From Streptomyces sp. NBC_01485 (lineage in GTDB: Bacteria; Actinomycetota; Actinomycetes; Streptomycetales; Streptomycetaceae): a stretch of 64,000 bases of DNA. The notes below the pieces were generated by a model, which saw only the letters and a list, made by a program, of their open reading frames with translations, ran no database searches and was not told the origin of the DNA. Below, piece by piece: positions 10,624 through 31,644 of the stretch. Within the stretch, counting starts at the first letter, position 1, and each line of letters starts with the position of its first letter. Position numbers and translations under genes: made by a program. The stretch is taken from positions 4,650,001-4,714,000 of the forward strand of contig NZ_CP109435.1 of assembly GCF_036227125.1 (NCBI RefSeq), written 5' to 3'.

Positions 10624-10625
10624 GC

Positions 10626-11789: not shown

Positions 11790-11981
11790 TACGCGCACTT
11801 AGATCCTGAACCTGAAACTCGTCACCGATGGTATGCGATTCGCAATCCGCACTACTCGCACCCACACAGTGGCCTCGTGACGTGGCGGCCCGCTGCATTA
11901 TTATGATCATGCCCATAAATCAGGTGCAGACTGATTCGGACCCATCTAGAATGCGTCACAACAGAGGCCAAAGGGACCGAA

Positions 11982-13115: not shown

Positions 13116-13322
13116 GCGCGCTCTCGCGATCGCTTTCTCGCACTCAGCTCTGCCCACTGGCCGTTGGGCCAGATCAGTGTTGGGGCGGGTGCGAGCTGGA
13201 TCAGACGAGACCGGCCGGTTTCACACCGTCAGATGAGCCCTGACCTGCGAATTCAGCCTTCTGTGTCCGACCTTTTGGGACATGTTGTCCAGAGGATGGC
13301 CACAAGGGTGACGGCATGCGAG

Positions 13323-14003
13323 TCACGCGCCCGTATTGAGGGTGCCCCCGGCACGGGCGGGAACGAGACGACTCGTGAAGCCACGGGACACAAGTCGCTG
13401 GTGCGCTCGTGTCACATCGGCGGGCACGTCTTGCGAGATCATGAAGCCCTGCGCCGGGTAGATCAACAGACGTTGCAGCGACCCCACAACCATGTCGATC
13501 ACAAGGCGCGCGTCCTGAATCGAATCGACATATTCGGGGAGGGTCATCGGGGTGGAAGCGCTGACGAACTCCACCCCGGGCCACAGCTTCCGGGCGGTGG
13601 CGTACGACCGCCGTTCCTCGTACGGCTTGCTGATCAGCAGCACTGAGGACGTCTCGATCCCGCGCTCTTCGAGTAGCGAGCAGGAGAGCGTGATGTTCTG
13701 CCCGGTGTTGCGTGCGTGAGGCTCCACGAGGATGGCGTCCCCCGGGACTCCCAGTTCGATCGCGCGGTCCCGGTAGTGCTCGGCTTCGCCACGCGGCATG
13801 CGTTCCCGCGTGGTCCTGCTGGTCGCTCCCGTGAACACGATGAGCGGCATCATCCCACGCAGGAACAGGTCCGCCGTCGTGTCAGCTACTCCCAGATCAT
13901 GGCTGCCCAGACCGATACCGACGGAGCATGGGCGCGGTTCGTGGTGCATCCGCTGGTAGTCCCAGAGAAGTTGGGTGTCTTCCCAGTCTCGTACGGAGAT
14001 CAC
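13323..14003 (-). CDS. YdcF-family (DUF218) protein
   Basis: 226 residues with the DUF218 layout: GIGLGSHDLGVADTTADL near the N-terminus, IVFTGATS, EAEHYRDRAIELGVP, EPHARNTGQNI and VLLISKPYEERRSYATA. The family resembles SAM- or nucleotide-binding Rossmann-like proteins (YdcF, SanA/ElyC); its reaction is unknown. GTG at 14003 overlaps the stop of the GntR gene (GTGA), so it is translated with the element's repressor. In pSAM2 the korSA neighbour is an immunity factor (Pif, a Nudix protein); this could be a functional counterpart, which is inference. Confidence 0.8.
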   Translation of the reverse strand: MISVRDWEDTQLLWDYQRMHHEPRPCSVGIGLGSHDLGVADTTADLFLRGMMPLIVFTGATSRTTRERMPRGEAEHYRDRAIELGVPGDAILVEPHARNTGQNITLSCSLLEERGIETSSVLLISKPYEERRSYATARKLWPGVEFVSASTPMTLPEYVDSIQDARLVIDMVVGSLQRLLIYPAQGFMISQDVPADVTRAHQRLVSRGFTSRLVPARAGGTLNTGA

Positions 14004-14806
14004 GTCAAGCCTCTCTCGCCGTTGACCTGTTGGCTGGCGGAATCAGGAACGTCGAATTCGTACTCCCACGCGAAGCGGGAGGCGGCATGAACGCCGACCG
14101 CGAACTCAACCACAGTGCCGTCCGCCGTGTATGTCGTCCGGTGCAGTTCGACTACAGGTTCACCGACGGGAAGCTGTAGGAGCTTCACCTCATCGCCCGT
14201 TGGCACGCGGGCGAACAGCGCCTCTTTCATGTGGTCGATCTCGTAACCGGCGTCATAGAGGACGCGGTAACCGCCACCCCGGCCGGCGGGCCCCGGCGTG
14301 GGATCGACGATGCGGGTTCCCTCTACGTGCTCGGGACGGTAGTAGCTGGTCAGGGTATGGGTCGGCTGCGTCCCTTCCTTCACCAGCCGGGCCCGTGCGT
14401 ACACGCCGGACCCAACCGGTACGCCAAGCCCTTCGGCTACGAGGGCGGTCGCTTCGGCGCGGGTCACCGTCTGCGTCTGCTCGTCCCTCTTGTACGCCCG
14501 CCCCGACGCCACACGGTCAGCGATGAACGCGACCTCATCACCGTCGCGCCACTTCGCCTTGTCGTAGCGGGCGATTCCGAGCCGCTTGAGGGGGGTACGC
14601 GCGCGCACGACCGTGCCGTGCCCGCGTGACGACGTCACGAGTCCTTCGGCCTCAAGTGCCTTGTAGGCCTGATGGACCGTGGACTTCGAGCCTTCCCCTG
14701 CCTCCACAAGCTCTCTGATCTGAGGCAACTGGGTCCCGGGCTTGCGCTCGCCACTCTTGATCTCCTGCGCGATCCGATCCGCCAGTTCGCGCCACTTGGG
14801 TGCCAC
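14000..14806 (-). CDS. GntR-family repressor with UTRA domain (KorSA-like)
   Basis: 268 residues: N-terminal winged helix (KWRELADRIAQEIKSG ... LPQIRELVEAGEGSKSTVHQ, residues 4-70) and C-terminal UTRA ligand domain (VYARARLVKEG ... LLQLPVGEPVVELHRTTY). In pSAM2-type elements KorSA represses replication/transfer activation and itself. Two adjoining 16-bp palindromes and a third copy lie upstream of its GTG start, which has GGGAG about 9 nt upstream. Likely regulator of AICE excision and transfer; the ligand is unknown. Confidence 0.9.
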   Translation of the reverse strand: MAPKWRELADRIAQEIKSGERKPGTQLPQIRELVEAGEGSKSTVHQAYKALEAEGLVTSSRGHGTVVRARTPLKRLGIARYDKAKWRDGDEVAFIADRVASGRAYKRDEQTQTVTRAEATALVAEGLGVPVGSGVYARARLVKEGTQPTHTLTSYYRPEHVEGTRIVDPTPGPAGRGGGYRVLYDAGYEIDHMKEALFARVPTGDEVKLLQLPVGEPVVELHRTTYTADGTVVEFAVGVHAASRFAWEYEFDVPDSASQQVNGERGLT

Positions 14807-14839
14807 AGCCGAACTCCCTTCGATGCGATCCAGTGAAAC

Positions 14840-14873
14840 ACAGTCCCAGGACTGTTGACAGTCCTGGGACTGT
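14840..14873. promoter_or_regulatory. Double operator of the GntR repressor
   Basis: Site 1 ACAGTCCCAGGACTGT (14840-14855) and site 2 ACAGTCCTGGGACTGT (14858-14873) are separated by 2 bp. Each has 7-bp arms, and the pair is also one large inverted repeat. Position in front of the repressor gene indicates autoregulation. Confidence 0.8.
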
Positions 14874-14898
14874 ACGCCATTGTCTTCATCAGCAGCTC

Positions 14899-14914
14899 GC
14901 AGTCCTAGGACAGC
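14899..14914. promoter_or_regulatory. Third, weaker repressor operator
   Basis: GCAGTCCTAGGACAGC has the same GTCC-NN-GGAC core as the double operator and faces the rightward transfer operon. Confidence 0.65.
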
Positions 14915-15301
14915 GAGTACGGAGGCTCCTCTTTGGGGTGCTCCGACAACTCAACAGCGTGATCCACCGCAGATACGACGGCCGTGACCGCACCGGCTGA
15001 GGCGAGTGGAGACCAGTCGGTCATCTCCCGTCAGGGACACGAGCCGACTCAAAAGAACGGATCTGCCCAAGGGCACGGACGCCGCGCGAAGAGACCGAGA
15101 TGCGATTCCTCGGAGGAGCGGGACTGAGGCACAGATCCATATCGCGCAGTACGGGCCGTCACCTCCCGCAAAGGGTGTCCAGCGCGGCTCAAGCTCGCGC
15201 ATATCTGACCTTCGCCGCATCCGTGCGGCGGCCGGTTGCCTCCGCTGCTCGTCTCGTACGAGCAGCGCTGAGGGGAGCCGGATTTCCGACTTCAACGGCG
15301 C
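14915..15301. other. Leader region of the spread/transfer operon
   Basis: 387 bp without a supported gene. A 20-codon GTG-started frame ends at 15000 but has no convincing ribosome site. Confidence 0.4.
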
Positions 15302-15333
15302 GCACCCACCGGAGGGCCAACTCCGGTGGGTGC
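15302..15333 (+). terminator. Strong hairpin before the spread operon
   Basis: GCACCCACCGGAG-ggccaa-CTCCGGTGGGTGC: perfect 13-bp stem, 6-nt loop, no U-tract, 38 bp before the first gene. It could be a terminator/attenuator in the leader or an RNA-stability element. Confidence 0.6.
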
Positions 15334-15371
15334 TGTTCGGGCCGTTCGCCCTGTGAGAGGAACACGACCCT

Positions 15372-15641
15372 ATGAACCCCATCGTGACTGTTCAGGACGC
15401 TGTTACGGCGTTCGCCGACTGGATTGAGCCGACCAGCGCTGAGCTGGACGCGATCGAGCTGGAGTCCCCCGTCACCTTGGCGGAGGTCGACCTGCTGGAC
15501 GCGCAGATCATCACGCTGGACCGCATCCCGAACGAGCTGGACGCCCGCCGCATCCGCCGGGCCCGGAACCGGGTGCTGGCGGCCCGTCGGGACCTGGCCA
15601 ACGGCCCGGCCGCCGCGATGCTGCCCGGTGGTGCCGCATGA
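15372..15641 (+). CDS. DUF6284 family protein
   Basis: 89 residues, acidic N-terminal half and Arg-rich second half (DARRIRRARNRVLAARRDLA). The pattern matches DUF6284, a small family found in Streptomyces AICEs and plasmids; its role is unknown. First gene of a tightly overlapping operon (ATGA with the next gene) leading to the transfer ATPase. GAGAGGAA precedes the ATG. Confidence 0.75.
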   Translation: MNPIVTVQDAVTAFADWIEPTSAELDAIELESPVTLAEVDLLDAQIITLDRIPNELDARRIRRARNRVLAARRDLANGPAAAMLPGGAA

Positions 15642-16087
15642 GCGCCCCGACGCAGAAGCTGACGGCCGCGCACGCCGAGGTGAAGGCGGAGATCGCGCGG
15701 ACGGACAGCAAGACGGGCCTGTTGCTGGCGTTCGTCGGCGCGGTATTCGCCGGCGCGTGGACCGTCGCCCGCACCCTCCCCCTGAACGTCCCGGCCTGCA
15801 TCGCGGGCGGTCTGGGCGTGGGGCTGTTGGTCGGGGCGGCGGGTCTGCTGCTGCGGTCGGTGCGTCCGAACCTGCGCGGCCGGCACGGCTTCCCGCTGTG
15901 GGCCACCCTCACCCCCGAGGAGATCACCACCACCGTCAACGGCGGTGACCTCGCCGCCGACGTCGCCGGACTGTCCCGGCTGGCGGTCGCCAAGTTCACC
16001 AGCCTGCGCCACGCGGTCGACCTCACCTACGCGGGCGGCGCACTGCTCATCCTCGCCGCCCTCCTCACGGCAGGGGGTACGACATGA
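15638..16087 (+). CDS. Pycsar-effector-like (DUF5706/PycTM) membrane protein
   Basis: 149 residues: an N-terminal amphipathic stretch (LTAAHAEVKAEIARTDSKTG), two adjacent transmembrane helices (~residues 26-45 and 52-71), a Pro-containing cytosolic region and a final helix (~130-146). This is the DUF5706 layout used for the pore-forming effector of Pycsar defence, but no uridylate or cytidylate cyclase gene is next to it. It lies in an ATGA-coupled operon with spread genes, so a Spd-type role in intramycelial transfer is as likely as defence. Confidence 0.7.
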   Translation: MSAPTQKLTAAHAEVKAEIARTDSKTGLLLAFVGAVFAGAWTVARTLPLNVPACIAGGLGVGLLVGAAGLLLRSVRPNLRGRHGFPLWATLTPEEITTTVNGGDLAADVAGLSRLAVAKFTSLRHAVDLTYAGGALLILAALLTAGGTT

Positions 16088-16368
16088 ACGCGATCCCGCA
16101 CACGGCGGTCCTGTCCGTGTCACCCGCGACCGGCACGTGGCGGGTGTTCGTGACGGTGCCGAAGACCAGCGGTCCGTGGCCCGAGCACGTGTTCGCCACC
16201 CCGCAGATCCCGACGCCCGAAGACAGGACGGCCGCTCTCTCCCTGCTCGGTTACGAGGGCGTCGCGGGTGCCGAGTGGCAGTGGGCCGAAGACACCACCG
16301 ACCCCGCCGGGCCGGTTCGTCTGCTCGCCGGCCTCGCGGTGCGGGAGCGGGCGGGGGGTGCGGCATGA
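16084..16368 (+). CDS. DUF6303 family protein
   Basis: 94 residues, soluble, with WRVFVTVPKTSGPWPEHVFA and several Trp. It resembles DUF6303, another AICE-associated family without known function. It overlaps both neighbours by ATGA, indicating coupled translation. Confidence 0.65.
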   Translation: MNAIPHTAVLSVSPATGTWRVFVTVPKTSGPWPEHVFATPQIPTPEDRTAALSLLGYEGVAGAEWQWAEDTTDPAGPVRLLAGLAVRERAGGAA

Positions 16369-17234
16369 GCGCCAAGACCGCACTCCCGGCCGTCGCGATG
16401 ACGGCTGTGTCCATGGTGCTGACCCTGGCCGTGGTCGTGATGTGGCTCGGGGACTCGATGCCCAAGGGCGTCGCCCTGGTCGTCGGCCTCGGTCTGGACG
16501 GCGGCTGGCTGGCCACCCTCGCATACGAACGCCGTCTGGCCGCGCAGGGCGACCACAACTGGTGGGTGACCGGGGTCGGCTGGGGCTTCGGTGCTGCCGC
16601 GACCGGCGTCCTGGTCGCCCACGCGGTCGGGGAGGACTCCCCCGGCGCATGGCTGGCCGTCTCCTGGCTGCCGATCGCGGCCAAGGCCCTGTGGCTCGTA
16701 CACGGGCTGTGGGAGCGCACCGCACTCACCCCGTCCGCCCTCGGAGCGATCCGGGGCATCCAGCAGGAAGCCCGCGACGAAGCCGCCGTCGCCCGCGCCC
16801 GACTGCGGGCCGAAGCGGCGACCGAGGAGACGCGGCTGACGGCCGTGACGGGGGCCGGGGCACGCGTCGCACGCGTCCAGGCCAAGACCGCCGAAACCCT
16901 GTCCCGGGCGTGGTCGACGCTTGAGGCGGCGCGGCAGGGTGAGGACACGGGCAGGGCGCTGACCAGCGTGACGACCCGCGTCACACCCGACGTCACACCG
17001 GGCGTCACACCCTGCTGGGAACTCCCCGTCTGGGGCCCCGTAGAGGCGGTCCCGGCCCTCGCCCTCGTGCCGCCACCCGCGCTCACCGACAGCGAGTTGG
17101 ATGCGCTGGTCGACGAGATCCGGCACAGCGAGACGCCCGCCCTGTCCTACCGCGAGATGGCCGCCCGCTTCCGCGCCGCCGGCCACTCCGCATCCGAGGG
17201 CCGCCTGCGCGACGCGTGGAAGCGCGTCGCGTGA
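16365..17234 (+). CDS. SpdB/DUF2637 plasmid-spread membrane protein
   Basis: 289 residues. Four hydrophobic segments in the first ~120 residues (VAMTAVSMVLTLAVVVMW; VALVVGLGLDGGWLATLAY; WWVTGVGWGFGAAATGVLVA; WLAVSWLPIAAKALWLVHG) form the DUF2637 domain. An Ala/Arg-rich coiled coil (~125-180) follows, with a C-terminal HTH-like region (SYREMAARFRAAGHSASEGRLRDAW) that could bind DNA. Spd proteins assist spreading of conjugated DNA through the mycelium. ATG at 16365 overlaps the previous stop. A TRVTPDVTPGVTP repeat lies in the linker. Confidence 0.82.
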   Translation: MSAKTALPAVAMTAVSMVLTLAVVVMWLGDSMPKGVALVVGLGLDGGWLATLAYERRLAAQGDHNWWVTGVGWGFGAAATGVLVAHAVGEDSPGAWLAVSWLPIAAKALWLVHGLWERTALTPSALGAIRGIQQEARDEAAVARARLRAEAATEETRLTAVTGAGARVARVQAKTAETLSRAWSTLEAARQGEDTGRALTSVTTRVTPDVTPGVTPCWELPVWGPVEAVPALALVPPPALTDSELDALVDEIRHSETPALSYREMAARFRAAGHSASEGRLRDAWKRVA

Positions 17235-17290
17235 CACGGGTTCCCCGCTACTCCCCCGACCGCTCCGCAATCCCTGAGGAGTGCCTGACC

Positions 17291-17608
17291 ATGGGCAAGC
17301 CCGACACTCGCCGCCTGGACCGTGAGATTCAGCAGACGACCCGCAAGCTCGAAGCGGTCCGCAACCAGGAGATGTGGCCGCTGACCGGTGCCGAACGGCG
17401 TGCCGTGATCGGTGCGATGGCTGGCGGCTCCTACCGGGTCATGCGGGGCAAGAGCCCCGGCCGCGCCGAACGGAAGCTGGACACGATGTGGGAGTCGGTC
17501 CAGACCCGGCTGATCGCCGAGATCACCGCGTTGCAGATGGAGCGGCAGCGGATCGTGAACGAGGCCGCCGCCGCCAAGGCCGCCAAGAAGTCGTCGGGGT
17601 GGTGGTGA
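17291..17608 (+). CDS. Small conserved AICE protein, function unknown
   Basis: 105 residues, highly charged and probably helical (RRLDREIQQTTRKLEAVRNQ at the start, a long helix EITALQMERQRIVNEAAAAK near the end). No known domain. ATG at 17291 with GAGGAG upstream; the stop overlaps the next start (GTGA). It lies between the spread gene and the transfer ATPase. Confidence 0.7.
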   Translation: MGKPDTRRLDREIQQTTRKLEAVRNQEMWPLTGAERRAVIGAMAGGSYRVMRGKSPGRAERKLDTMWESVQTRLIAEITALQMERQRIVNEAAAAKAAKKSSGWW

Positions 17609-17802
17609 CCGTGTTCCGTGCCGGGGACAGGGTCACGGTCGTGGCCTGCGCGGACGACCCCCGCGCGGTGGGCCGGATCGGCCGGATCGTCGACGAGGTC
17701 CCGCCCGGCCCCCTCACCAACGGCCGCTGGTCGGTTCACGGCGTCGGCCTGCTGGTCGGCCCCGTCCTGTGCCACGGCCACGAGATCACGAAGACCGGCT
17801 GA
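17605..17802 (+). CDS. Small protein, possible KOW-like beta fold
   Basis: 65 residues (FRAGDRVTVVACADDPRAVG..., GRIGRIVDEVPPG). The pattern of Gly-Asp-Val and GRIGRIV resembles KOW/SH3-like barrels, but this is only a composition-level suggestion. GTG start overlaps the previous stop. Too short for most gene finders; kept because of the overlap and codon bias. Confidence 0.55.
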   Translation: MTVFRAGDRVTVVACADDPRAVGRIGRIVDEVPPGPLTNGRWSVHGVGLLVGPVLCHGHEITKTG

Positions 17803-17900
17803 CACACGGCCCCGCCGGGACGGCCGCCCCGCCGTCCCGGCCCCCTCTTCCTTCCTGCCTTTCCTGCCCCCGCCCGTAGGGGCGTTGAGGAGACTTCCGC

Positions 17901-20054
17901 ATGTCCGAGAACGTCGTTCACCTGCACAAAGACACCACCCCCGCCCAACCGGTCATCCTGACCGTGGTCCCCGACCCGGAACCGGCCGTTCCCGCCGAGT
18001 CGTCGGTCGTGGCCGGTCCGGCTGTTGAGGCCGTCGACCTGCCCGGCAACCCGCTGGCCGACTGGCTCACCGCCCCCGAGTCGCCCGTGCTGCCCGTGTG
18101 GGCCCGCTCGCGTGCGTCCGTGATCGCCAACGTCCGCGCGTTCGGCCGACTCACCTGGTGGCACACCCGCTACCACGGCTTCCGCACCCCGAAGTACCTG
18201 GTCAAGACGGCGCTGCTGGCCGCGCGTGGCTTCTTCCGGGCCGCCGCCGGACTGTGGCCGACCCTGTCCGCGCAGGACCACAGCGCGACCGTCAAGGCCC
18301 TGCGCGCGCAGGTCAAGGCCCGCCCGGAGGACGTCGACCTGGCCGTGCGGCTGCAAGTCGCGCACTACACCCGCACACAGGCCCGCCGTTGGCGGTTCGG
18401 TGCCGCCGCCGCTGCGGTCGCCGCCGCCGCACTCGGTGTCGCGCTGGCACCCCCGCTGCTGCAAGCCGGCATGGGGGCCGCCGTCATCACCCCCCTCGCC
18501 TACCTGGGACGCGGCAAAGAGACACGTCTCCTCGACCAGGCGGCCCCGCCGCTGAAGGTGGACATGTCCGCGCAGCAGCTCAACGAAGCCCTGCGGGCCG
18601 CCGGCCTCCTCAAAAGCGGCAGCGGCAAGGACGAAAAAGACCTTCCGAAGGTGCTCTGCACGATGGGCCCGGTCCGCGACGGCCGTGGCTGGGCCGTGAT
18701 CTTCGACCTGCCGCGCGGTGGCGGCAAGACCGCCTCCGACGTCCTGGCCAAACGGGAGGTCATCGCGCAGGAACTCGGGGTCGACGAGATCCAGGTCATC
18801 ATGTCCCGCGTCCGCGCGGCCAAAGGCGGCAACGCCGGCCGCGTCTCGATGTGGGTCGCCGACGACGACCCCTACCTGGGCCCGCTCAACCCCTCCCCGC
18901 TCCAGAAGGCCGAGAAGTTCTCGATCTGGGACGCGGTCCCGTTCGGGCAGGACGCCCGCGGCAACCGTGTGGCCGTGCCGGTCATGTGGCAGTCGATGTT
19001 CTTCGGTGGTCTGCCCCGCCGGGGCAAGACGTTCTCACAGCGGCTGCTCACCGCCGCCGGTCTGCTGGACGCCTACGTGCGCCACTACGTCGCGGACGGC
19101 AAGGGCGGAGCCGACTGGATGCCCATGAAGGCCGTCGCCCACCGCCTCGTCATGGGCGCGGAGGACGACGCGATCGAAGCGCTGAAGGCCATGCTGCAAG
19201 AGCTGCTGGCGGAGATGGAACGCAGGTTCGCGCTGCTGCGGGACCTGCCGACGTCCGTGTGCCCGGAGGGCAAGCTCACCCCCGACATCATGGTCAAGTA
19301 CAACCTGCCCGTCACCTTCGTGACCATCGACGAACTGCAGGAGTACTTCACCGCGATGGAGCGCGAAGACCGCGAGCAGGTCATCAACGACCTATGCCGG
19401 ATCGCCCGCCGGGGCCCGGCAGCCGGGTTCATCTCCAACTTCGCCTCCCAGCGCCCCGACGCCGAATCCGTGCCCGCGAAACTGCGGGAGATCATCACCA
19501 TCCGCTACTCCACCCAGGTCGTCGACCGCACCAGTTCCGACATGGTCCTCGGCAAGGGCAAAGCCGCCCAGGGCGCAGACGCCTCCGTCCTGTCCGAGGA
19601 CCACAAGGGCGTCGGTGTCCTGGTCACCGGCCCCGCCTCGTTCGTGACCGTGCGCGCCGACTACCTCGACGGAACCGGGTTCGCCGCGCTGTGCCGCAAG
19701 GGCCGCGCCCTGCGCGAGGCCGCCGGACAGCTCACCGGCGACGCGGCCGGCGACGTCACCGCCGCCGCCGACGCGGCCGGACTCACCGTGCCCGCCATCG
19801 TCTCCGACGCACTGGAAGTCATGCGGCACTCACCGCGCATGTTCACCACCGACCTCCTCGCCGGACTCGTCAACCTCGACGAAGACGTCTACGGCGACCT
19901 CAACGCCGAACGCCTCGCCTCCGAACTCGAGACGGCCGGCGTCAAGCGCACCAGCAAGCAAGTCAAGATCAGCGGCGCGAACGGTGCCGGCTACCAGCGG
20001 CGCGACATCGAAGCCGCCGTGCCCGCCGAGATCCTCCTCAGCACCGGCAGGTAA
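17901..20054 (+). CDS. tra: FtsK/SpoIIIE-type conjugal transfer ATPase (TraSA/TraB-like)
   Basis: 717 residues. It moves double-stranded element DNA between hyphae as a membrane-anchored hexameric motor. Visible parts: cytosolic N-terminus, a hydrophobic segment (~residues 178-205, RRWRFGAAAAAVAAAALG onward), Walker A GGLPRRGKTFS (~370), Walker B VTFVTIDELQEY (~470), the FtsK-like IARRGPAAGFISNFASQRP stretch, and a C-terminal winged-helix-like region for clt binding. ATG with GAGGAG upstream. Candidate clt repeats follow directly downstream. Confidence 0.93.
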   Translation: MSENVVHLHKDTTPAQPVILTVVPDPEPAVPAESSVVAGPAVEAVDLPGNPLADWLTAPESPVLPVWARSRASVIANVRAFGRLTWWHTRYHGFRTPKYLVKTALLAARGFFRAAAGLWPTLSAQDHSATVKALRAQVKARPEDVDLAVRLQVAHYTRTQARRWRFGAAAAAVAAAALGVALAPPLLQAGMGAAVITPLAYLGRGKETRLLDQAAPPLKVDMSAQQLNEALRAAGLLKSGSGKDEKDLPKVLCTMGPVRDGRGWAVIFDLPRGGGKTASDVLAKREVIAQELGVDEIQVIMSRVRAAKGGNAGRVSMWVADDDPYLGPLNPSPLQKAEKFSIWDAVPFGQDARGNRVAVPVMWQSMFFGGLPRRGKTFSQRLLTAAGLLDAYVRHYVADGKGGADWMPMKAVAHRLVMGAEDDAIEALKAMLQELLAEMERRFALLRDLPTSVCPEGKLTPDIMVKYNLPVTFVTIDELQEYFTAMEREDREQVINDLCRIARRGPAAGFISNFASQRPDAESVPAKLREIITIRYSTQVVDRTSSDMVLGKGKAAQGADASVLSEDHKGVGVLVTGPASFVTVRADYLDGTGFAALCRKGRALREAAGQLTGDAAGDVTAAADAAGLTVPAIVSDALEVMRHSPRMFTTDLLAGLVNLDEDVYGDLNAERLASELETAGVKRTSKQVKISGANGAGYQRRDIEAAVPAEILLSTGR

Positions 20055-20060
20055 AGCCCT

Positions 20061-20206
20061 CCCCCCTCTACCCACACCGCGCTGGACCCCCCTCTGCCCG
20101 GCCGCGCGCCCCCTTCCGCGACCGCCCCGGAGTAGAGGGGGCTCTTTACCCCGGTAGAGGGGGAGGTAGAGGCCCCTGACCTGCAAGGTAAGGCCGGTAA
20201 AGGGGG
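20061..20206. repeat. GTAGAGGG repeat cluster (candidate clt / Tra-recognition locus)
   Basis: GTAGAGGGGG at 20132-20141 and 20154-20163, GTAGAGGCCC at 20166-20175, the reverse form CCCCCCTCTACCC at 20061-20073, and related GGTAAAGGGGGG at 20196-20207. It lies immediately 3' of the transfer ATPase gene, where cis-acting transfer loci made of 8-bp direct repeats are known in Streptomyces plasmids. Confidence 0.5.
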
Positions 20207-20324
20207 GCATGCAGCCCCCCGCCCAACCCCCGGAAGGGGGTGGTTCCACCTCCCTGGCCTGCTGCCGGGAGGGAATCCCCACACGTCCCGCACCCACCCC
20301 TCGCGCGCCCTCGAAGGAGGACTC

Positions 20325-20633
20325 ATGCGCCGCTCCGACCCGCCCGGAATCATCGCTCCGCACATCCCCGCCGACGCCTACCACCGCGCCCAGACCACCG
20401 GCCAGCCCATCGTGATCGTCGTCCACACCACCGACCACCACGGCCGCCCCCTCAGCCACTTCCTCTACCCCCTCGCCGTCGCCACGGCCGGCGCGATCGG
20501 CGTGTTCGCCACCGTCGCCGCGCTCCTCGCCCTCCTCGACTTCGCCGTCCACACCGCCCTCGCCATCGCCGCCGCCACCGGCCCCCTCAGCGTGGGCGGG
20601 ATCACCTTCAAGCTCTTCGACTCCAAGCGCTGA
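20325..20633 (+). CDS. Small membrane protein (spread-type)
   Basis: 102 residues; soluble N-terminus (~50), then two hydrophobic helices (FLYPLAVATAGAIGVFATVA and LLALLDFAVHTALAIAAATG). ATG preceded by AAGGAGG. The position after tra and the topology suggest a Spd-like accessory protein; no named family recognised. Confidence 0.65.
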   Translation: MRRSDPPGIIAPHIPADAYHRAQTTGQPIVIVVHTTDHHGRPLSHFLYPLAVATAGAIGVFATVAALLALLDFAVHTALAIAAATGPLSVGGITFKLFDSKR

Positions 20634-20644
20634 AAGGAAACCCC

Positions 20645-21082
20645 GTGTTCGAGATCCGGATCATCTGCGACTACTCCGACGTCGACCGCCTGACCAACAC
20701 CCTGAGCGGCGTATTCATCACCGGGCGGGCCGTCGTCCACCCTGCCCGCGACAGCAAGCGCGCCCGCGTCTACCTCGACGCCGAACAGCGCGAGATCTGG
20801 CCCGACCCCGAGCAGGCCTACACCGGTGCGCCGAAGGTGCGCAGTGAGCTGACGTGGCTGTCCGAGCGTGAGCCGCACGAGCGGGACCGCGTGTGGTGGC
20901 TGCGCCGCGCCGCCGCCACCGACCGCATGGCCTGCGGACTGACCTCCGACGGCATCGCCACCGAGGAACAGGCCCTCAACGTGGCATGCCGCCTGATGAA
21001 CCTCGACCGCGCGGCCCTCGTCTGCGACCCCCGCGCCTACACCCGCCAGCAGTACGCCCACTGGATCGCCGACAACCAGTAG
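20645..21082 (+). CDS. Conserved AICE protein, function unknown
   Basis: 145 residues, acidic, Trp-rich in the middle (TWLSEREPHERDRVWWLRR), no membrane segment. It begins FEIRIICDYSDVDRLTNTL, which looks like a beta-alpha unit. GTG at 20645 with AAAGGA upstream, 11 bp after the previous gene, so same operon. No family assigned. Confidence 0.65.
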   Translation: MFEIRIICDYSDVDRLTNTLSGVFITGRAVVHPARDSKRARVYLDAEQREIWPDPEQAYTGAPKVRSELTWLSEREPHERDRVWWLRRAAATDRMACGLTSDGIATEEQALNVACRLMNLDRAALVCDPRAYTRQQYAHWIADNQ

Positions 21083-21169
21083 CTACGCCAAGGGCGACCC
21101 CCCTCTCGCCAAAGAAACGGGGCCGCCCTTGTCCACCTGCCATCAACTGACATGTGGAGGTCATCCAGC

Positions 21170-22066
21170 ATGACGCAACCGACCAACATCCGGCGAGCCC
21201 TCGCCCTGCGCCTCGCCGCCCACGGTGTCCCGGCCCTGCCCCTGCGCGTGGGGAAGGTGCCGTTCGGCAACTGCCCGGCCTGCGCCAAGAACGCCTGCGG
21301 CAAGACCATCTGCGGCGGCCGGCCGAACATGAAGAACCCCGGCCCCTGCCACTGCCCCGACGTCTGCCACGCATGGGCCGCAGCCACCACCAACCCCCAC
21401 ATCCTCACCTCCCCGCCGTGGGAGGCGGCATGGCGACGGGCCGAAGCCGTCGCCTACCACCCCGGCGGGGCCGGGGTGACCGTGGTCGACCTCGACACCC
21501 CCGCCGCCGTCGCATGGGCCAGGGAGAGCCTGCCCGCGACCCGGACCGTGCCGACGACGCGCGGCGAGCACTGGCTCTACCGGGGCGTGATGCGGTCGGC
21601 GAACGCCGTGCGGCCCGGGGTCGACGTCAAGTCGCTCATGCAGTACGCCCGCTGGCTCGGCCCCGGCACCGGCCGCATGACCATGCTGCCGCTGGCCGTG
21701 CGCGCCCTGGTCGTGAAGGAAGACACCACCCCCGCCCCGGCAGGCTTGGCCTCTTCCGTCCCCGCCCGCGCCCCGTGGAGCCGCAGCGTGGCCACCGGAT
21801 GCCGCCACACCGAACGCTACGTCCGTACCGGACTCGAACGCGGCCTCGCCCTCGTATCCGCCCGCACCGAATCCGGCGCAGGATCACAGGCCTTCGGTGT
21901 CGCCCGCTTCCTCGCCGCCCAGCACACCCACTGCCCTGGCCCCTGCGCACTGGACGCCATCGGCGAGGAGATCGTGGCCGCCGCCGTCGCCGTGGGCGTC
22001 CCGGAGGACTACGCCCGCCGCGCGGTCACCAACGGCCTCCAGACGCCCTCAGGGCGTGCGGCATGA
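21170..22066 (+). CDS. Prim-pol (primase-polymerase) replication protein of the AICE
   Basis: 298 residues. An N-terminal Cys-rich zinc-binding region (CPACAKNACGKTICGG ... CHCPDVCHAW, ~residues 26-67) precedes a prim-pol core with VVDLDTP (~105-111) and EHWLYRG (~130). Prim-pol proteins are one of the recognised replication-initiator types of AICEs (RepPP). The gene is coupled by ATGA to a small zinc-finger-like gene and then to a helicase, so the three likely form the replication module. ATG chosen with TGGAGG upstream. Confidence 0.85.
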   Translation: MTQPTNIRRALALRLAAHGVPALPLRVGKVPFGNCPACAKNACGKTICGGRPNMKNPGPCHCPDVCHAWAAATTNPHILTSPPWEAAWRRAEAVAYHPGGAGVTVVDLDTPAAVAWARESLPATRTVPTTRGEHWLYRGVMRSANAVRPGVDVKSLMQYARWLGPGTGRMTMLPLAVRALVVKEDTTPAPAGLASSVPARAPWSRSVATGCRHTERYVRTGLERGLALVSARTESGAGSQAFGVARFLAAQHTHCPGPCALDAIGEEIVAAAVAVGVPEDYARRAVTNGLQTPSGRAA

Positions 22067-22404
22067 CCAAACCATCGTGTAACACCGCAAACGACCCTCA
22101 GGATGCCGTACAGGGCGCGCAGGGCGTGAGCGTGGGCGTGCTGAAGGTCGCCGCCCGCAAGGGCGTCCCCATTGCCCTTCGCTCCAACCCGCCGCAGGGC
22201 GACGGCCGTTACCCCGTCGCATGGCTGCACATCAGCGCCCCGCGCAGGTGCGGAGGCACGCCCACCGCAACCTCGAAGTGCCTGTGTGGCTGGGACCGAA
22301 GCGCCGTCGGCCACACCCGCGTACTCGCCCTGATCGAGGCACACACCGCCCACCGAGACGCCTGCCCGCTGCGCCACCCTCAGGAAGGCAGGGCCGCCGC
22401 GTGA
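22063..22404 (+). CDS. Small Cys/His-rich protein in replication operon
   Basis: 113 residues; the C-terminal half has CGGTPTATSKCLCGW ... HTRVLALIEAHTAHRDACPL, a pattern compatible with a zinc finger. It overlaps the prim-pol stop (ATGA) and the helicase start. Function unknown; a DNA-binding or primase accessory role is inferred. Confidence 0.7.
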   Translation: MTKPSCNTANDPQDAVQGAQGVSVGVLKVAARKGVPIALRSNPPQGDGRYPVAWLHISAPRRCGGTPTATSKCLCGWDRSAVGHTRVLALIEAHTAHRDACPLRHPQEGRAAA

Positions 22405-23822
22405 TGGACACCCGCACCACCGACGCCGAGGAACTGCCCGCGCCGTCCAACCCGTTGGCCGTCGCCCGCCGTCTCCTGCCGGACTGGCAGACCGAGGACG
22501 GACAGCTCGTGTGCCGACGCTGGCGCGCGTCCTGGATGCGCTGGACCGGGACCTGTTGGCGCGAGCTGGACGAAGCCCAGATCCGCGCCGCCATGTACAC
22601 GCGCCTTGAGCACACCGTGTACAGCACCCCCGGCAAGGACGGGCAACCGGAACAGCGGGAGTGGGCACCGACGAAGCAGAAGATCAGCAACCTGCTCGAC
22701 GCGCTCGGGGCCATCACCCTGCTGCCCACCGACACCGACGCCCCCACCTGGCTCGACACCGACGGCCAGGCCGGGGACGACGGAGGGCCGATCGTGGCGT
22801 GCGAGAACGGCCTGCTGAGGATTCGGGACCGCGCGCTTCTCCCGCATGGGCCGGGGTTCTTCAACCTCGTGTCCGTCCCCTTCGCCTACGACCCCACCGC
22901 CACCGCACCCACGTGGGAAAGCTTCCTGGCGCAGATCTGGCCCGACGACCCCGACAGCATCCAGGCACTTCAGGAGTGGTTCGGCTACGTGCTGTCCGGC
23001 CGGACCGACCAACAGAAGATCCTGCTCATCGTCGGACCGTCCCGCTCGGGCAAGGGCACCATCGCCCGCGTCCTCAAAGAGCTGGTCGGCAAGGAGAATC
23101 TCGCCGGCCCCACCCTTGCCGGACTCGGCACCAACTTCGGCCTTGCCACCCTGGTCGGCAAGCCGCTCGCGGTCATCTCCGACGCCCGTCTGTCCGGCAA
23201 CGACAGCAGCCAAGTCGTCGAACGGCTCCTGACCATCTCCGGCGAGGACACCATCGACGTCGACCGCAAGTACCGCGAACAGTGGACCGGCAGACTGCCC
23301 ACCCGGCTGATGCTGCTGTCCAACGAACTCCCGCACTTCGGCGACTCTTCCGGGGTCATCGCCAAACGGTTCGTGCTGCTCAACATGCGGGTGTCGTGGT
23401 TGGGCAAGGAAGACACCTCCCTCACCGACCGCCTCGCGGCCGAGATGCCCGGCATCCTCAACTGGGCCCTCGACGGACTCGCCCGCCTCCAGCGCACCGG
23501 CCGGATCACGGAACCGAAATCCAGCCGCGAAGCGGTCACCACCATGCAGGACACCGCCTCACCCACCAGCGCATTCGTCCGCGAACGCTGCACCACCGGA
23601 CCCACGTGCAGCGTGCCCGTGGACACGCTGTGGAACGTCTGGCGGGAGTGGGCCGAGGACAACGGCGTCCGCCCCGGCACCAAACAGGTCTTCGGCCGCA
23701 ACCTCCTCTCCGTCGTCCCCCCGCTCAACCGCACCCGCCCCCGCGACGCCTACAACCGGCAGGTGGCCACCTACACCGGAATCACGGTGAACGCGTCCGA
23801 ACCACATTTGCCTGAGTCGTGA
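22404..23822 (+). CDS. P4/D5-type phage-plasmid primase-helicase
   Basis: 472 residues. A D5_N-like region (~100-195) precedes an SF3 helicase domain: Walker A GPSRSGKGTI (~residues 211-220), Walker B AVISDAR (~270-276), sensor region LMLLSNELP. A C-terminal winged-helix-like segment (VPVDTLWNVWREWAEDNG) follows. Unwinds DNA at the element's origin, probably with the prim-pol next door. TGATG stop-start overlap with the upstream gene fixes the start at 22404; GTG at 22401 is possible. The stop lies inside a large inverted repeat. Confidence 0.9.
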   Translation: MDTRTTDAEELPAPSNPLAVARRLLPDWQTEDGQLVCRRWRASWMRWTGTCWRELDEAQIRAAMYTRLEHTVYSTPGKDGQPEQREWAPTKQKISNLLDALGAITLLPTDTDAPTWLDTDGQAGDDGGPIVACENGLLRIRDRALLPHGPGFFNLVSVPFAYDPTATAPTWESFLAQIWPDDPDSIQALQEWFGYVLSGRTDQQKILLIVGPSRSGKGTIARVLKELVGKENLAGPTLAGLGTNFGLATLVGKPLAVISDARLSGNDSSQVVERLLTISGEDTIDVDRKYREQWTGRLPTRLMLLSNELPHFGDSSGVIAKRFVLLNMRVSWLGKEDTSLTDRLAAEMPGILNWALDGLARLQRTGRITEPKSSREAVTTMQDTASPTSAFVRERCTTGPTCSVPVDTLWNVWREWAEDNGVRPGTKQVFGRNLLSVVPPLNRTRPRDAYNRQVATYTGITVNASEPHLPES

Positions 23823-23880
23823 CTCATCGCGGCTCAAGCCCCCACCAACCCGCTCTGAGTCGCGATGAGTCACGACTCAG
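23812..23880. repeat. 25-bp inverted repeat between helicase and xis
   Basis: Left arm 23812-23836 and right arm 23856-23880 match with one mismatch across a 19-nt spacer. Each arm contains its own palindrome, TGAGTCGTGACTCA (23813-23826) and TGAGTCACGACTCA (23866-23879). It could be a replication origin, an Xis/regulator site or a terminator. Confidence 0.75.
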
Positions 23881-23932
23881 AGCAATGTGTTCAGAACCCC
23901 ATCACCGCGCTACCCCCGCGCTGAGGAGTGCC

Positions 23933-24118
23933 ATGTCTCGCCCCAAGCTGCTGAAACTCCCCGAGGTTCTCGAAGAGATCGACATGAGCCGTGCCGCCTT
24001 CTACCGCATGCGGGCACGCGGGAAGGCACCGAAGCTCATCAAGTTGCCCAACGGGCAGATCCGTTGCCGCCGTCACGACCTGGACACCTGGCTGAACGGC
24101 TGCCAGGACGCGGCCTGA
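23933..24118 (+). CDS. xis: Excisionase (Xis), HTH/MerR-like
   Basis: 61 residues with a winged-helix excisionase fold: LPEVLEEIDMSRAAFYRMRARG, then KLPNGQIRCRRHDLDTWL. Directionality factor that helps the integrase excise the element. ATG with GAGGAG upstream, 64 bp before int, the usual AICE arrangement. Confidence 0.9.
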   Translation: MSRPKLLKLPEVLEEIDMSRAAFYRMRARGKAPKLIKLPNGQIRCRRHDLDTWLNGCQDAA

Positions 24119-24136
24119 TCCCACCCCGCACATGAC

Positions 24137-24168
24137 CCGAGGGGCCCGCCGTCCGGTGGGCCCCTCGG
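24137..24168 (+). terminator. Hairpin between xis and int
   Basis: CCGAGGGGCCC-(10 nt)-GGGCCCCTCGG, a perfect 11-bp stem. It may lower read-through from xis into int or shape int translation. Confidence 0.6.
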
Positions 24169-24182
24169 TATGAGGAGAGCAC

Positions 24183-25580
24183 TTGAAGACCTACAACGTG
24201 CGGATCTGGGGCATCCGGAAGCGCGCCAGCAAGTCGGCCCCCTTCCAACTCCGTTGGCTGGTCAACGGAGAGGAGTTCCAGGAACCGTTCACGACTCGGA
24301 CGCTCGCCGACGCGCGACGGGCCGAACTGCTCACCGCGACCAAGAACGGCGAGCCGTTCGACGTGGCCACCGGGGTACCGATCTCGGAGATGCGCGAGGC
24401 ATCCTCGCCTACCTGGTACGAGCACGCGTGCGCGTACGCCGTGATGAAGTGGCCCGGGGCGGCGGGTAAGCACCGCGCGAGCGTGGCCGAGACGTTGTCG
24501 GCGGTGACGGCGCACCTGGTCTCGACTCAGCGAGGCGTACCTGACCGTGCTGTACTTCGGCGCGCGCTCCAGACGTACGCCTTCCAGTGCCGGATCGATC
24601 CGGAGAGCGGCGAGCCGGTCGCCCGCAAGGACAGTGAGGAACTGCCGCGAGAGGTCGAGACCGCACTCGACTGGGTGGCGTCGCACTCATTGAAGATGGT
24701 CGACGTAGCGGAGTCCGATGTACTGCGCGGTGTCCTGCGCGTCCTGTCCAAGAGGCTGAACGGCCGCCCGGCCGCCGACAACACGGTGCGGCGCAAGCAC
24801 TCGGTGCTGAGCAACTCGTTCAAGTACGCCATCGAGCGCGACCTTCTGACAGTCAACCCGCTGAAGCGAATCGACTGGACCCCGCCGGCCACCTCTGACG
24901 AGGTGGACTTCCAGTTCGTCCCCGGCCCCGCCCAGGTCGTCGAGCTGCTTGAGGCCGTACAAGAGACGGGGACCCGAGGGGGCCACCTCCACGGGTTCTT
25001 CGCGTGTATGTACTACGCCGCGATGCGCCCCTCGGAGGTCGCCAACCTGAAGCGGTCCGCCTGCAAGTTGCCTGATCAGGGGTGGGGCGAGCTGGTGTTG
25101 TCCAAGAGCCGCCCCGAGGTCGGGACCGGATGGACCGACGACGGCAAGCCCTACGAGGAACGGGGCCTGAAGAGGCGGGCCCGCAATGCGACGCGCCCCG
25201 TCCCGATCCCCCCGGCGCTGGTCAGTCTGCTGCGGGCGCACCTGGACACGTACGGGACGGCACCGGACGGACGGCTTTTCCGGGGTATCCGGGGTGGACG
25301 GGTGCCGTCGACCGAGTACGCCGAAGTATGGAAGGCGGCGCGCGAGCTGGCACTCGACGCCGAGGATCTGGAGACGCCCTATGCCCATGTGCCGTACTCA
25401 CTGCGGCACGCGGGGGTCTCGCTGTGGATCAAAGCCGGGGTCGATCCGGTGGAGGTGGCCCGCCGCGCCGGGCACAGTCCAGCCGTCCTGTGGAAGTTCT
25501 ACGCGAAGATCCTGCGCGGCCACCAAGACGCATCCAACAGCATGATCGACGCCGCCTTGGCCGACGAGACGGACGCCTGA
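24183..25580 (+). CDS. int: Tyrosine site-specific integrase
   Basis: 465 residues. N-terminal SAM-like core-binding region and C-terminal catalytic domain with Arg in AAMRPSEVANL (~residue 284), the YSLRHAGVS box (Tyr replaces the usual first His, as in other actinomycete integrases), AGHS, and nucleophile Tyr in WKFYAKIL. Integrates and, with Xis, excises the element at the tRNA-Ser 3' end that starts 140 bp downstream. TTG start with GAGGAG 6 nt upstream. Confidence 0.95.
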   Translation: MKTYNVRIWGIRKRASKSAPFQLRWLVNGEEFQEPFTTRTLADARRAELLTATKNGEPFDVATGVPISEMREASSPTWYEHACAYAVMKWPGAAGKHRASVAETLSAVTAHLVSTQRGVPDRAVLRRALQTYAFQCRIDPESGEPVARKDSEELPREVETALDWVASHSLKMVDVAESDVLRGVLRVLSKRLNGRPAADNTVRRKHSVLSNSFKYAIERDLLTVNPLKRIDWTPPATSDEVDFQFVPGPAQVVELLEAVQETGTRGGHLHGFFACMYYAAMRPSEVANLKRSACKLPDQGWGELVLSKSRPEVGTGWTDDGKPYEERGLKRRARNATRPVPIPPALVSLLRAHLDTYGTAPDGRLFRGIRGGRVPSTEYAEVWKAARELALDAEDLETPYAHVPYSLRHAGVSLWIKAGVDPVEVARRAGHSPAVLWKFYAKILRGHQDASNSMIDAALADETDA

Positions 25581-25666
25581 GCGGCGCGGCCAGCTGGCCG
25601 CAGGTTGGCCACACGCGCTGATCAACGCCGGGATACCGGCGAGTCAGGGTGAGACAAGGTGAACGA

Positions 25667-25700
25667 AGAAGGGGTGCCTCCCATCGGAGACACCCCTTCT
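25667..25700. terminator. Bidirectional terminator between int and tRNA-Ser
   Basis: AGAAGGGGTG-(14 nt)-CACCCCTTCT, a perfect 10-bp stem. It serves int (rightward) and, on the other strand, the tRNA-Ser transcript carried on the element side. Confidence 0.7.
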
Positions 25701-25720
25701 GACCAGTGCATACGCTGATC

Positions 25721-25810
25721 TGGCGGTGGGTGTGGGATTTGAACCCACGGTGACATCGCTGCCACGACGGTTTTCAAGACCGTTCCCTTAGGCCGCTCGG
25801 GCAACCCACC
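25721..25810 (-). tRNA. tRNA-Ser (anticodon UGA)
   Basis: 90 nt on the minus strand: acceptor arms GGTGGGT/ACCCACC, anticodon loop CTTGAAA with anticodon TGA at 25774-25776, long class-II variable arm, T-arm GTGGG-TTCAAAT-CCCAC, discriminator G and encoded CCA. The 3' two-thirds (25723-25782) is the AICE attachment repeat, so the element rebuilds a complete tRNA after insertion. Confidence 0.97.
25723..25782. repeat. Right attachment site (60 bp, inside tRNA-Ser)
   Basis: Perfect copy of 9458-9517; crossover lies within this stretch. The match stops one base before the last two bases of the CCA tail. Confidence 0.95.
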
Positions 25811-29741: not shown

Positions 29742-30707
29742 ATGGCCAAGAAGCGACCCCAGACGAAGGCCGGACGGCCGCAGCTCACCGATGGCGAGGT
29801 CCCGGTCGTCGGCGCGCGGGAGCCCTGCCCGTGCGGCAGCGGCCGCCGCTACAAGGCCTGTCACGGCCGGGCCGCCTCGCATGCCGCGACCGAGCTGGTG
29901 CAGCGCCCCTTCGAGGGCCTGCCGGGCGAGGGCGACTGGGTGGCGCTGCGCGAACTGGTGCCGGCCGCCACGGTCGAGCTGGCCCTGAAGGCGGGTCTGC
30001 CCGAGGGCGTCCCGTCGGTCACGCTCGCCACGGTGCTGCCGATGGCCTGGCCCGCCCTGCGCCGCGACGACGGCTCGGTGCTGCTCGGCCTGCAGAACGA
30101 CACGCCGTCCGGCGACATCAGCCGCGACCTGGCGGACACCCTGCGGCGGGCCCTGGAGGCGGACCCCGGCACCCCGGTGCAGGCCCGCCGCGCCCCGGCC
30201 GACGGTCCTCGGATGCAGGATCTGCTCGACCCCGAAGGCGCGTTCGAGCCAGTCGTCCACAGCGGTTTCGAGTTCTGGGTGCCGGACCCGCAGAACGCCG
30301 CGCCGGAGGTGGCCGCCTCCCTGGAGCGGGCCAACGCCGCCGCGATCCCGACCGTGAAGCTGACCGGTGTGGACGCCGCGTACTGGTGTGAGACGCCGGA
30401 CAAGAACCACCTGCGCTGGGTCATGCCGTACCCGGAGGAGCAGCTTCTGGACGCCCTCGCGCGGCTGCACGCGGCGGGCGGTTCGAGCCTCGGCGAGGGC
30501 ACGCGCCTGGTGGGTTCCTTCCGGGCGCACGGTCTGACGGTGCCCGTCTGGGACCTGCCGAGCGCGCTCACCGCGGACGACGTGGAGAAGCCGGCAGCCG
30601 AGTTCGCCGAGCGCCTCGCCACCGCCCTGGCCTCGGGCGAAGCGCTCACGGCCGACGAGCGGCGCGCGCGTGGCGGCCTGACCAACCGACAGGTCACGCT
30701 GAGCTGA
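29742..30707 (+). CDS. DUF5926 family protein with SEC-C zinc motif
   Basis: 321 residues. The N-terminus carries a SEC-C-type zinc site (PCPCGSGRRYKACHG, residues 28-42) like that of SecA C-termini; the rest is the DUF5926 region conserved in actinobacteria (FEFWVPDP, AYWCETPDKNHLRWVMPYPEEQ). Role unknown; SEC-C domains bind ribosomes, SecB or nucleic acid. ATG with GGGAGA upstream. Confidence 0.85.
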   Translation: MAKKRPQTKAGRPQLTDGEVPVVGAREPCPCGSGRRYKACHGRAASHAATELVQRPFEGLPGEGDWVALRELVPAATVELALKAGLPEGVPSVTLATVLPMAWPALRRDDGSVLLGLQNDTPSGDISRDLADTLRRALEADPGTPVQARRAPADGPRMQDLLDPEGAFEPVVHSGFEFWVPDPQNAAPEVAASLERANAAAIPTVKLTGVDAAYWCETPDKNHLRWVMPYPEEQLLDALARLHAAGGSSLGEGTRLVGSFRAHGLTVPVWDLPSALTADDVEKPAAEFAERLATALASGEALTADERRARGGLTNRQVTLS

Positions 30708-30731
30708 CGCACAGGGACCGGACCCGGCCGC

Positions 30732-30749
30732 ACTGACCGACCGGTCAGT
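30732..30749. promoter_or_regulatory. TetR-type palindrome upstream of candidate RNA
   Basis: ACTGACC-gacc-GGTCAGT has the same 7-4-7 geometry as the site at 3671-3688, but lies between convergent protein genes, upstream of a hairpin-rich stretch. Confidence 0.5.
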
Positions 30750-30802
30750 ATCCCGGGCGCCGGCGGCCTGCGTGACTCCGCTCACAACTGCCGCCCGCGC
30801 AA

Positions 30803-30950
30803 GGCGAGTCGACGCCAGAAGCGTCGATTCGCCGGTGTCCGGAAAGCCGATGGAAACAGGAGATCGAATTTGCGTAGCGCCGATCTCTTGTTACCGTTCG
30901 AGTAGCCCGGTTGCTGGTGCATCCCCCGTCGCCAGCAACCGGGCCTCTCT
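30803..30950 (+). ncRNA. Candidate structured small RNA or leader with own terminator
   Basis: Three consecutive hairpins: 30803-30833 (13-bp stem with one G-U pair, loop cagaa), 30860-30887 (GAGATCG/CGATCTC), and 30905-30944 (perfect 13-bp stem GCCCGGTTGCTGG/CCAGCAACCGGGC) followed by CTCTCT. An AGGAGA precedes a tiny TTG frame (11 codons, one TTA) at 30870-30905. It lies between convergent genes with an upstream palindrome. It could equally be the 3' UTR of the DUF5926 gene. Not matched to a known RNA family. Confidence 0.4.
30905..30944 (+). terminator. Strong terminator hairpin
   Basis: 13-bp perfect stem, 14-nt loop, pyrimidine-rich CTCTCTGT tail. Confidence 0.75.
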
Positions 30951-30984
30951 GTGCGCGGCTCCGTTTACACGATGCCAGGGCACG

Positions 30985-31644
30985 TCAACTGCCCGTGTCC
31001 GCCCGGGAGTTGCTCCCTGAGCGCAGCAGCAGCGGCCCGTCGTCGGTCGCTCGGGCAAACTCCGCGACCGCCGTGTACGCCGCCAGCTGACCCCGGGTCC
31101 GCTCATGGGGCGTCTCGCAGGATTCCGGCTCGTCCTCGGCGCCCACCACGCAGCTCGTCCGCACCGTGCGCCCCGCGGGCCCCATGAGGCTCAGGAAGGC
31201 GTCCAGGGCGCGTCCGGTGGCGTTGCGGTAGTAGGTGCGCGCCCAGGTGTCCTCACCCTGGGACAGCACGCAGGTCTGCGCCTCCACGCCGTCGGGGGAG
31301 GTGAGCTCGGGGCCGCAGCGGGCGGCGGTGGCCAGACCCAGGCCGAGCAGCAGCGGGGAACGTGAGGGGGCGACGGGGGGCGCCTTGGGATCCGTACCGC
31401 CGTCGGCGCGCGCGTCGGCCGCGACATCGCCGCCTGGCGCGGCCGCATCGTCGGAGCGTGGCGCGGCCGCGTCGTCGGAGCGCGCGTCGGTGTAGGGGGA
31501 AGCATGCGAGGAAGCGCGTGGACCGGCGGCCGCTCGGGTCGCCGCGCGCCCTTCGTCGCCGGCCGGCCCCGCGGACGCCATGGCCAGAGGCAGTGCGATC
31601 GCGCCTGCCACGGCGCCACCGAGGGCGAGGAGACGAAGGTTCAT
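30985..31644 (-). CDS. Secreted protein of unknown function
   Basis: 219 residues. Signal peptide (NLRLLALGGAVAGAIALPLA...) with likely cleavage near residue 27, a disordered Asp/Ala-rich segment (SDDAAAP repeats, ~45-90), then a compact C-terminal domain (~95-219) with four Cys (RCGPEL, TCVLS, SCVVG, SCETP), enough for two disulfides. No family recognised. ATG at 31644 has no ribosome site, but TATCTT lies 7 nt upstream, so a leaderless transcript is likely. Confidence 0.75.
   Translation of the reverse strand: MNLRLLALGGAVAGAIALPLAMASAGPAGDEGRAATRAAAGPRASSHASPYTDARSDDAAAPRSDDAAAPGGDVAADARADGGTDPKAPPVAPSRSPLLLGLGLATAARCGPELTSPDGVEAQTCVLSQGEDTWARTYYRNATGRALDAFLSLMGPAGRTVRTSCVVGAEDEPESCETPHERTRGQLAAYTAVAEFARATDDGPLLLRSGSNSRADTGS

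Follow-up and report, generated by a model that had tools for sequence, protein, structure and literature searches.

A very short conserved hairpin with a promoter-like element between convergent Streptomyces genes, probably a small regulatory RNA of Actinomycetes

CRP-activated small RNAs (sRNAs) of the CyaR type are enterobacterial and Hfq-dependent, and Actinobacteria are not known to have Hfq. 6C RNA (RF01066), an actinobacterial sRNA, is defined by a pair of stem-loops that contain at least six C residues each (PMC8388888). In Streptomyces, the sets scr5583/sar2652/svr5279 and scr1434/sar6912/svr1031 have been described as conserved and highly expressed sRNAs with C-rich loops (Moody et al. 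2013, PMC3765725). Also, a conserved intergenic sequence of 96 nt in S. coelicolor (4375750..4375846), whose flanking genes are convergent, has been predicted as sRNA ID#341 (Panek et al. 2008, PMC2422843), and a signal was obtained for it in microarrays and RT-PCR ('++'; PMC2422843, Table 1).

Here, a window of 64,000 nt from Streptomyces sp. NBC_01485 (contig NZ_CP109435.1, positions 4,650,001 to 4,714,000 of the forward strand) was analysed around an intergenic stretch (30732-30950) which a first-pass annotation had flagged as a candidate regulatory RNA with three stems, a TetR-like palindrome and a TTA-containing mini-frame. The stretch lies inside a gap of 277 bases between a gene for a SEC-C/DUF5926 protein (29742..30707, plus strand; Pfam PF19348 with E 2e-127, and PF02810) and a convergent gene (30985..31644, minus strand), whose product by reading has a signal-peptide-like start and had no Pfam match. 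A check of the sequence found the three inverted repeats, the palindrome at 30732-30749 and a TTG...TTA...TAG frame in place as described, and the stretch 30732-30970 folds with -133.7 kcal/mol (z = -8.99 against 200 shuffles). Elsewhere in the window, at about 10600-25810, FtsK/SpoIIIE-like, DUF5906/D5_N primase-like and HTH/IrrE-like genes adjoin a tRNA-Ser, and judged by these genes the region looks like an integrated actinomycete element.

The hairpin family has no match in Rfam 15, neither at the hairpin nor at its relatives. At the gathering score, the whole window and 20 loci gave only a tRNA away from the hairpin; in relaxed searches, five loci gave none at E<=1, and the region 30700-31000 gave six chance-level matches at E<=10, none of them near the cut-off. 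Searches for 6C RNA gave nothing in the window (gathering score) or in 30700-31000 (E<=10), and the genome of the strain had none at E<=0.001 in a search that is insensitive (one of 14 control genomes matched, none over the cut-off). The letters of the hairpin and the names scr3971-scr3976 were not found in the papers searched; later S. coelicolor sRNA surveys may list the RNA in their supplements. From sequence comparison, the locus probably belongs to a well-conserved family of very short, regulatory hairpin RNAs with a promoter-like element.

Structure and distribution of the hairpin

The predicted sRNA (30904..30950, plus strand; about 45-47 nt, both ends inferred) consists of two hairpin arms of 15 bp (30905-30919 and 30930-30944), the apical loop CAUCCCCCGU = CATCCCCCGT (30920..30929) and a pyrimidine-rich tail (30945-30950). 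The hairpin matches the covariance model with 66.4 bits, and 30904-30950, i.e. this last hairpin with its flanks, folds with -31.8 kcal/mol (z = -7.18). A DNA search matched 120 of 121 Streptomyces genomes, in most of them with the part at about 30860-30950; the sole genome without a match (1/121) is an assembly of 82% completeness. Across 30 aligned and 40 further listed loci, the hairpin is unchanging and the upstream block nearly so in the main copy, with the palindrome farther off.

For covariation analysis, two alignments were used. Alignment A1 contains 50 distinct hairpins from Streptomycetaceae plus one Catenulispora record among them; its rows were collected by a near-exact loop pattern, so that the selection itself makes loop and upper stem constant, and 6 of the 15 pairs changed on both sides while 99.3% of the cells pair. 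Alignment A2 contains 49 rows including 38 distinct distant members, which were picked among the better-scoring class-wide model matches, and shows compensatory changes at 13 of 15 pairs. Its covariation score was 0.618 (shuffled mean 0.258, none of 500 shuffles as high; slid structures at most 0.172). The loop together with the next base, C30930, contains TCCCCCGTC, which is constant in all 49 rows; columns T21-C29 are invariant, and UCCCCCGUC (loop plus closing C) shows no variation while the letters at most stem pairs change. Because near-exact loop letters served to gather the main loci, and model score to choose the distant ones, both this loop constancy and the covariation counts lean towards the model. 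In three weaker relatives with a HATPase neighbour (L390-L392), the loop reads GCCCCCGTC (GCCCCCGUC).

Among the three flagged stems, conserved RNA structure with compensatory changes, the mark of an independent sRNA gene, is confined to the third hairpin (30905-30944), in the Streptomycetaceae-dominated as well as in the class-wide alignment. The RNA part is thus about one fifth of the flagged stretch, and of the three-stem RNA proposed at first only stem 3 is retained. Stem 1 (30803-30833) was rejected as an RNA structure; it is a local insertion, present only in the close relatives L001-L005 among the first 30 aligned loci. For stem 2 (30855-30892), 121 of the 143 loci supplied 96 distinct rows. 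Of its five outer pairs, four form in 25-45 of the 96 rows and the fifth in 84, whereas the seven inner pairs form in 69-91 rows. With 4 compensatory cells in total over 12 pairs x 96 rows, the covariation check was almost negative here, and stem 2, which overlaps the promoter-like element, was likewise rejected as an RNA structure.

A covariance model R1 was built from A1, and a second model R2 after adding the distant members (A2). With R1, the hairpin was detected in all 297 Streptomycetaceae genomes (17 of 17 sampled genera) and class-wide in 141 of 394 genomes at E<=0.1. At E<=0.01, R2 matched 148 of the 394 class genomes, representing 59 of 137 genera, with Streptomyces accounting for 40 of the 148; 23 families, Streptomycetaceae included, had a best E<=1e-6 in this class sample. 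In a sample of the phylum, 14 of 198 genomes matched, eight of them Streptomyces and the other six weakly; the one weak match inspected from outside the class (L393) has no window-gene homologue in its vicinity. Three pattern matches in viral contigs had no stem, and neither phage records (E<=0.1) nor plasmid records (E<=0.001) gave a match.

Neighbourhoods are largely kept. DUF5926 lies upstream in 139 of the 143 main loci, the remaining four having the downstream Prim-Pol gene of the window, and homologues of DUF5926, HATPase or GDPD are nearby in 35 of 40 selected distant loci. In seven of these 40 loci, and also at L395 and L396, DUF5926 is encoded on the opposite strand and convergent with the hairpin, which makes independent transcription likely. 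Together with the conserved promoter-like element described below, this arrangement renders a plain 3' UTR unlikely; of the three readings offered by the first-pass annotation (sRNA, leader-peptide device, long 3' UTR), the sRNA is the one that holds, in the reduced form of a single hairpin of about 45 nt, and the leader-peptide device is poorly supported.

A second match was found in 41 of the 121 Streptomyces genomes by DNA search. In the genome of the strain this paralogue lies at G000:C1:5218966-5219015 after a gene for a WD40 protein (Pfam), and in all eight paralogue loci inspected the upstream gene encodes a similar C-terminus (LPRLSYEPPC-like). The same genome contains a weak third model match of 36.9 bits at G000:C1:3810884-3810929 (L389), which has TCCCCCGTC in the loop and is without a recognisable -10 element.

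Promoter-like element and Crp-type palindrome

Directly upstream of the hairpin, a predicted -10 element TACCGT (30892..30897, plus strand) of the form TANNNT is preceded, at a distance of 16 nt, by a predicted -35 element TTGCGT (30870..30875, plus strand). At 8-22 nt upstream of the model start, TANNNT is present in every main locus (142 of 142) and every paralogue (46 of 46), as well as in 39 of the 40 distant loci; shuffling gave expectations of 15.9, 3.0 and 4.8, respectively. By reading, all 50 main loci inspected have TTGC at a fixed distance of 22 nt upstream of TANNNT; TTG[CA] at -35 spacing was present in none of 20 paralogues inspected, and 20 of the 39 distant loci have TTG at 16-19 nt before TANNNT (2.0 in shuffles). 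In S. coelicolor, TANNNT is the -10 motif of 80.4% of the start sites (PMC4895711). From TANNNT and the -35 spacing, we predict that the sRNA gene has its own promoter. Since the -10 element ends at 30897, the start is expected near 30904, at the foot of the stem, and not near 30750-30800 as suggested at first; this would give an RNA of about 45 nt. The transcript probably begins at the stem base and is hardly longer than its own terminator. A scan of 30700-31000 for sigma-70 promoters with an E. coli-type consensus gave none, and a scan of the same region for U-run terminators gave no site either: the terminator tail that had been annotated is visible as a pyrimidine-rich run, but it is weak and short. 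The empty standard scans call for caution, above all about termination.

An inner inverted repeat of 7 bp (GAGATCG/CGATCTC, 30860-30866/30881-30887) within stem 2 encloses the -35 element and extends into the spacer, with almost no compensation. Another regulator might use it as a DNA operator.

The Crp consensus of S. coelicolor is GTGN6GNCAC, and class I CRP sites of E. coli lie near -61, -71, -82 and -92. A Crp-type palindrome, GTGACTCCGCTCAC (30772..30785, plus strand), lies upstream of the promoter-like element. Of the 142 main loci, 108 have a perfect GTGA-N6-TCAC (0.30 expected from shuffling), and so do 39 of the 46 paralogues (0.05 expected). For 71 of these 108 main loci, its centre stands 89 nt from the model start, and in the paralogues the distance is 67-70 nt; the two preferences are about two helical turns apart and, with the inferred start, amount to approximately -91 and -70. 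In the main copy of the strain, the stem-1 insertion shifts the centre to 123 nt before the model start (about -125), i.e. 34 nt beyond the preferred 89 nt. A Crp-type palindrome at a preferred upstream place, as expected for a member of the Streptomyces Crp regulon, is thus seen in most Streptomyces copies, and the hairpin RNA is probably under Crp control in Streptomyces. As the site is found in no more than 4 of the 40 distant loci, such control would not be class-wide.

Action of the loop and alternative explanations

The explanation we favour, and consider fairly probable, is a stand-alone sRNA gene with a vegetative-type promoter and a self-terminating hairpin, linked to Crp in Streptomyces and acting in trans by its loop. 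The promoter (TTGCGT, 16 nt, TACCGT) would initiate at about 30904, and the hairpin of 15 bp would serve both as RNA body and as terminator, the product being a stable RNA some 45 nt long. The activator site upstream would probably tie its production to cAMP-Crp in Streptomyces. The exposed loop (C)AUCCCCCGU(C) would most likely pair with G-rich mRNA stretches near ribosome-binding sites, without Hfq, and lower or alter translation; alternatively, a conserved RNA-binding protein might recognise the loop.

Pairing with G-rich mRNA sites is our leading guess for the mode of action. For candidate partners, GACGGGGGA located 3-9 nt before RTG was searched in four genomes, with the backward pattern as control, and 32, 43, 45 and 31 places were found versus 6, 6, 7 and 7. 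Ordinary ribosome-binding sequence alone could account for this excess. For comparison, 30 listed places per genome (of the 32, 43, 45 and 31) were used, a few of them being one site counted twice; among these, no gene with a GACGGGGGA site was common to all four genomes. Shared genes were found between pairs of genomes, and one ABC-permease-like gene was shared by three, the site in that case lying in the coding end of the preceding gene. In two genomes (L328, L378), GACGGGGGA stands 3-4 nt ahead of the start of a gene whose translation resembles a Crp/Fnr-type regulator; this gene, not shared by all four genomes, is a possible target of the sRNA. In two Streptomyces genomes (L284, L321), a stretch around GACGTCGAAGCG(T/C)TTCGACGGGGGAAGGTATG, 77% identical over 169 bases, contains the complement of the loop. 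Ribosomal RNA was rejected as a fixed partner: 16S rRNA contains the complementary GACGGGGG, but the best complement is 8 nt and was equalled by many permuted loops (21 of 252 for the 16S part, 54 of 252 for 16S plus 23S).

The same data bear on a second reading, which we regard as possible though clearly the less probable one, namely that the RNA serves an RNA-binding protein as decoy or ligand, like CsrB-type and 6S-type RNAs, with the loop as protein site instead of pairing seed. A loop that stays constant while the stem letters vary freely would suit a protein site, and so would the lack of an mRNA site common to all four genomes among the places compared; as a rule, however, C-rich loops pair with G-rich RNA, as in RNAIII and 6C.

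The hairpin might also be a mere transcription terminator of the DUF5926 or the convergent gene, with the short RNA as by-product, a reading suggested by its location between convergent genes and by the G+C-rich stem with pyrimidine tail. We consider this improbable. A terminator does not need a sequence of 9 nt around the loop that is unchanging class-wide, nor a promoter-like element at nearly fixed spacing directly upstream, and paralogues stand after a WD40 gene. Moreover, the DUF5926 gene appears to have a hairpin of its own. The palindrome ACTGACCGACCGGTCAGT (30732..30749, plus strand) lies just past the DUF5926 stop, and in 44 of 125 relatives this stop is followed directly by a perfect inverted repeat whose arms measure 8 bp or more (shuffle expectation 2.4). 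These separate repeats have arms of up to 25 bp, and they resemble terminator hairpins, because their outer arms often differ between species and yet remain complementary. The palindrome, first read as a TetR-like operator, is therefore more likely a 3' hairpin of the DUF5926 gene, probably the U-less terminator stem-loop of its mRNA and outside the sRNA. Many of the repeats share a recurring core like CTGACCGACCGGTCAG.

That the element acts at the DNA level, as operator or recombination site, we hold to be very unlikely: it is an inverted repeat with a conserved centre which recurs at paralogous places, but the conserved loop itself is asymmetric, and at 227 of the 228 loci TANNNT keeps to one and the same side of the loop. 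A leader-peptide or TTA-codon (bldA-type) device can practically be dismissed, for the TTA present in all 96 rows and the stop after 10-11 codons in 76 of 96, in a stretch whose letters scarcely vary, stand against a ribosome-site-like sequence in only 7 of 96 rows, a frame running for at least 30 codons in 20 of 96, and a next gene on the other strand with none following on the strand of the frame within the gap. By its letters, moreover, the mini-frame is the promoter-like element itself, with the TTG start codon in the -35 and the TTA over the -10.

Comparison with described small RNAs

Returning to the sRNA gene, the hairpin looks like a separately made regulatory RNA shared by many Actinomycetes. 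Tentatively, we propose that this promoter-linked terminator hairpin of 45 nt could be an ancient, class-wide regulator of Actinomycetes, in which UCCCCCGUC would be fixed by many mRNAs or by one essential protein, and whose two copies in Streptomyces would be under cAMP-Crp. If true, it would link carbon or growth state to translation in bacteria without Hfq. The gene also opens the question whether cAMP-Crp works through an RNA in Streptomyces. Partner finding by actinobacterial sRNAs is poorly known; a tiny RNA that combines a fixed loop with a simple gene and a paralogue is an easy subject for study. The hairpin would form a new Rfam family, for which alignment and model are ready.

Regarding previous descriptions, from SCO3972, the Prim-Pol (PMC6767563), and SCO3976, the glycerophosphodiester phosphodiesterase (PMC5539140), the S. 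coelicolor copy can be assigned to the gap between SCO3973 and SCO3974. By gene neighbours and coordinate order, this copy is probably ID#341, predicted in 2008: a 5' C-rich stretch in descending coordinates (4375909..4375880) fits the strand of SCO3974, as in the window. The parts of that study covered here give neither promoter, 45-nt RNA, paralogue, family nor function. The scr5583 and scr1434 sets are set apart from the main copy by their names alone, which imply adjoining genes other than SCO3973/SCO3974, and the WD40-linked paralogue might be linked to one of them.

The likeness to CRP-activated sRNAs such as CyaR lies in an sRNA gene preceded by a CRP-type site. Nearest in style is 6C, an actinobacterial sRNA with C-rich loops that presumably pair with G-rich mRNA sites; whereas 6C has two stem-loops with at least six C each, the RNA described here has one hairpin, in which CCCCC is followed by GUC.
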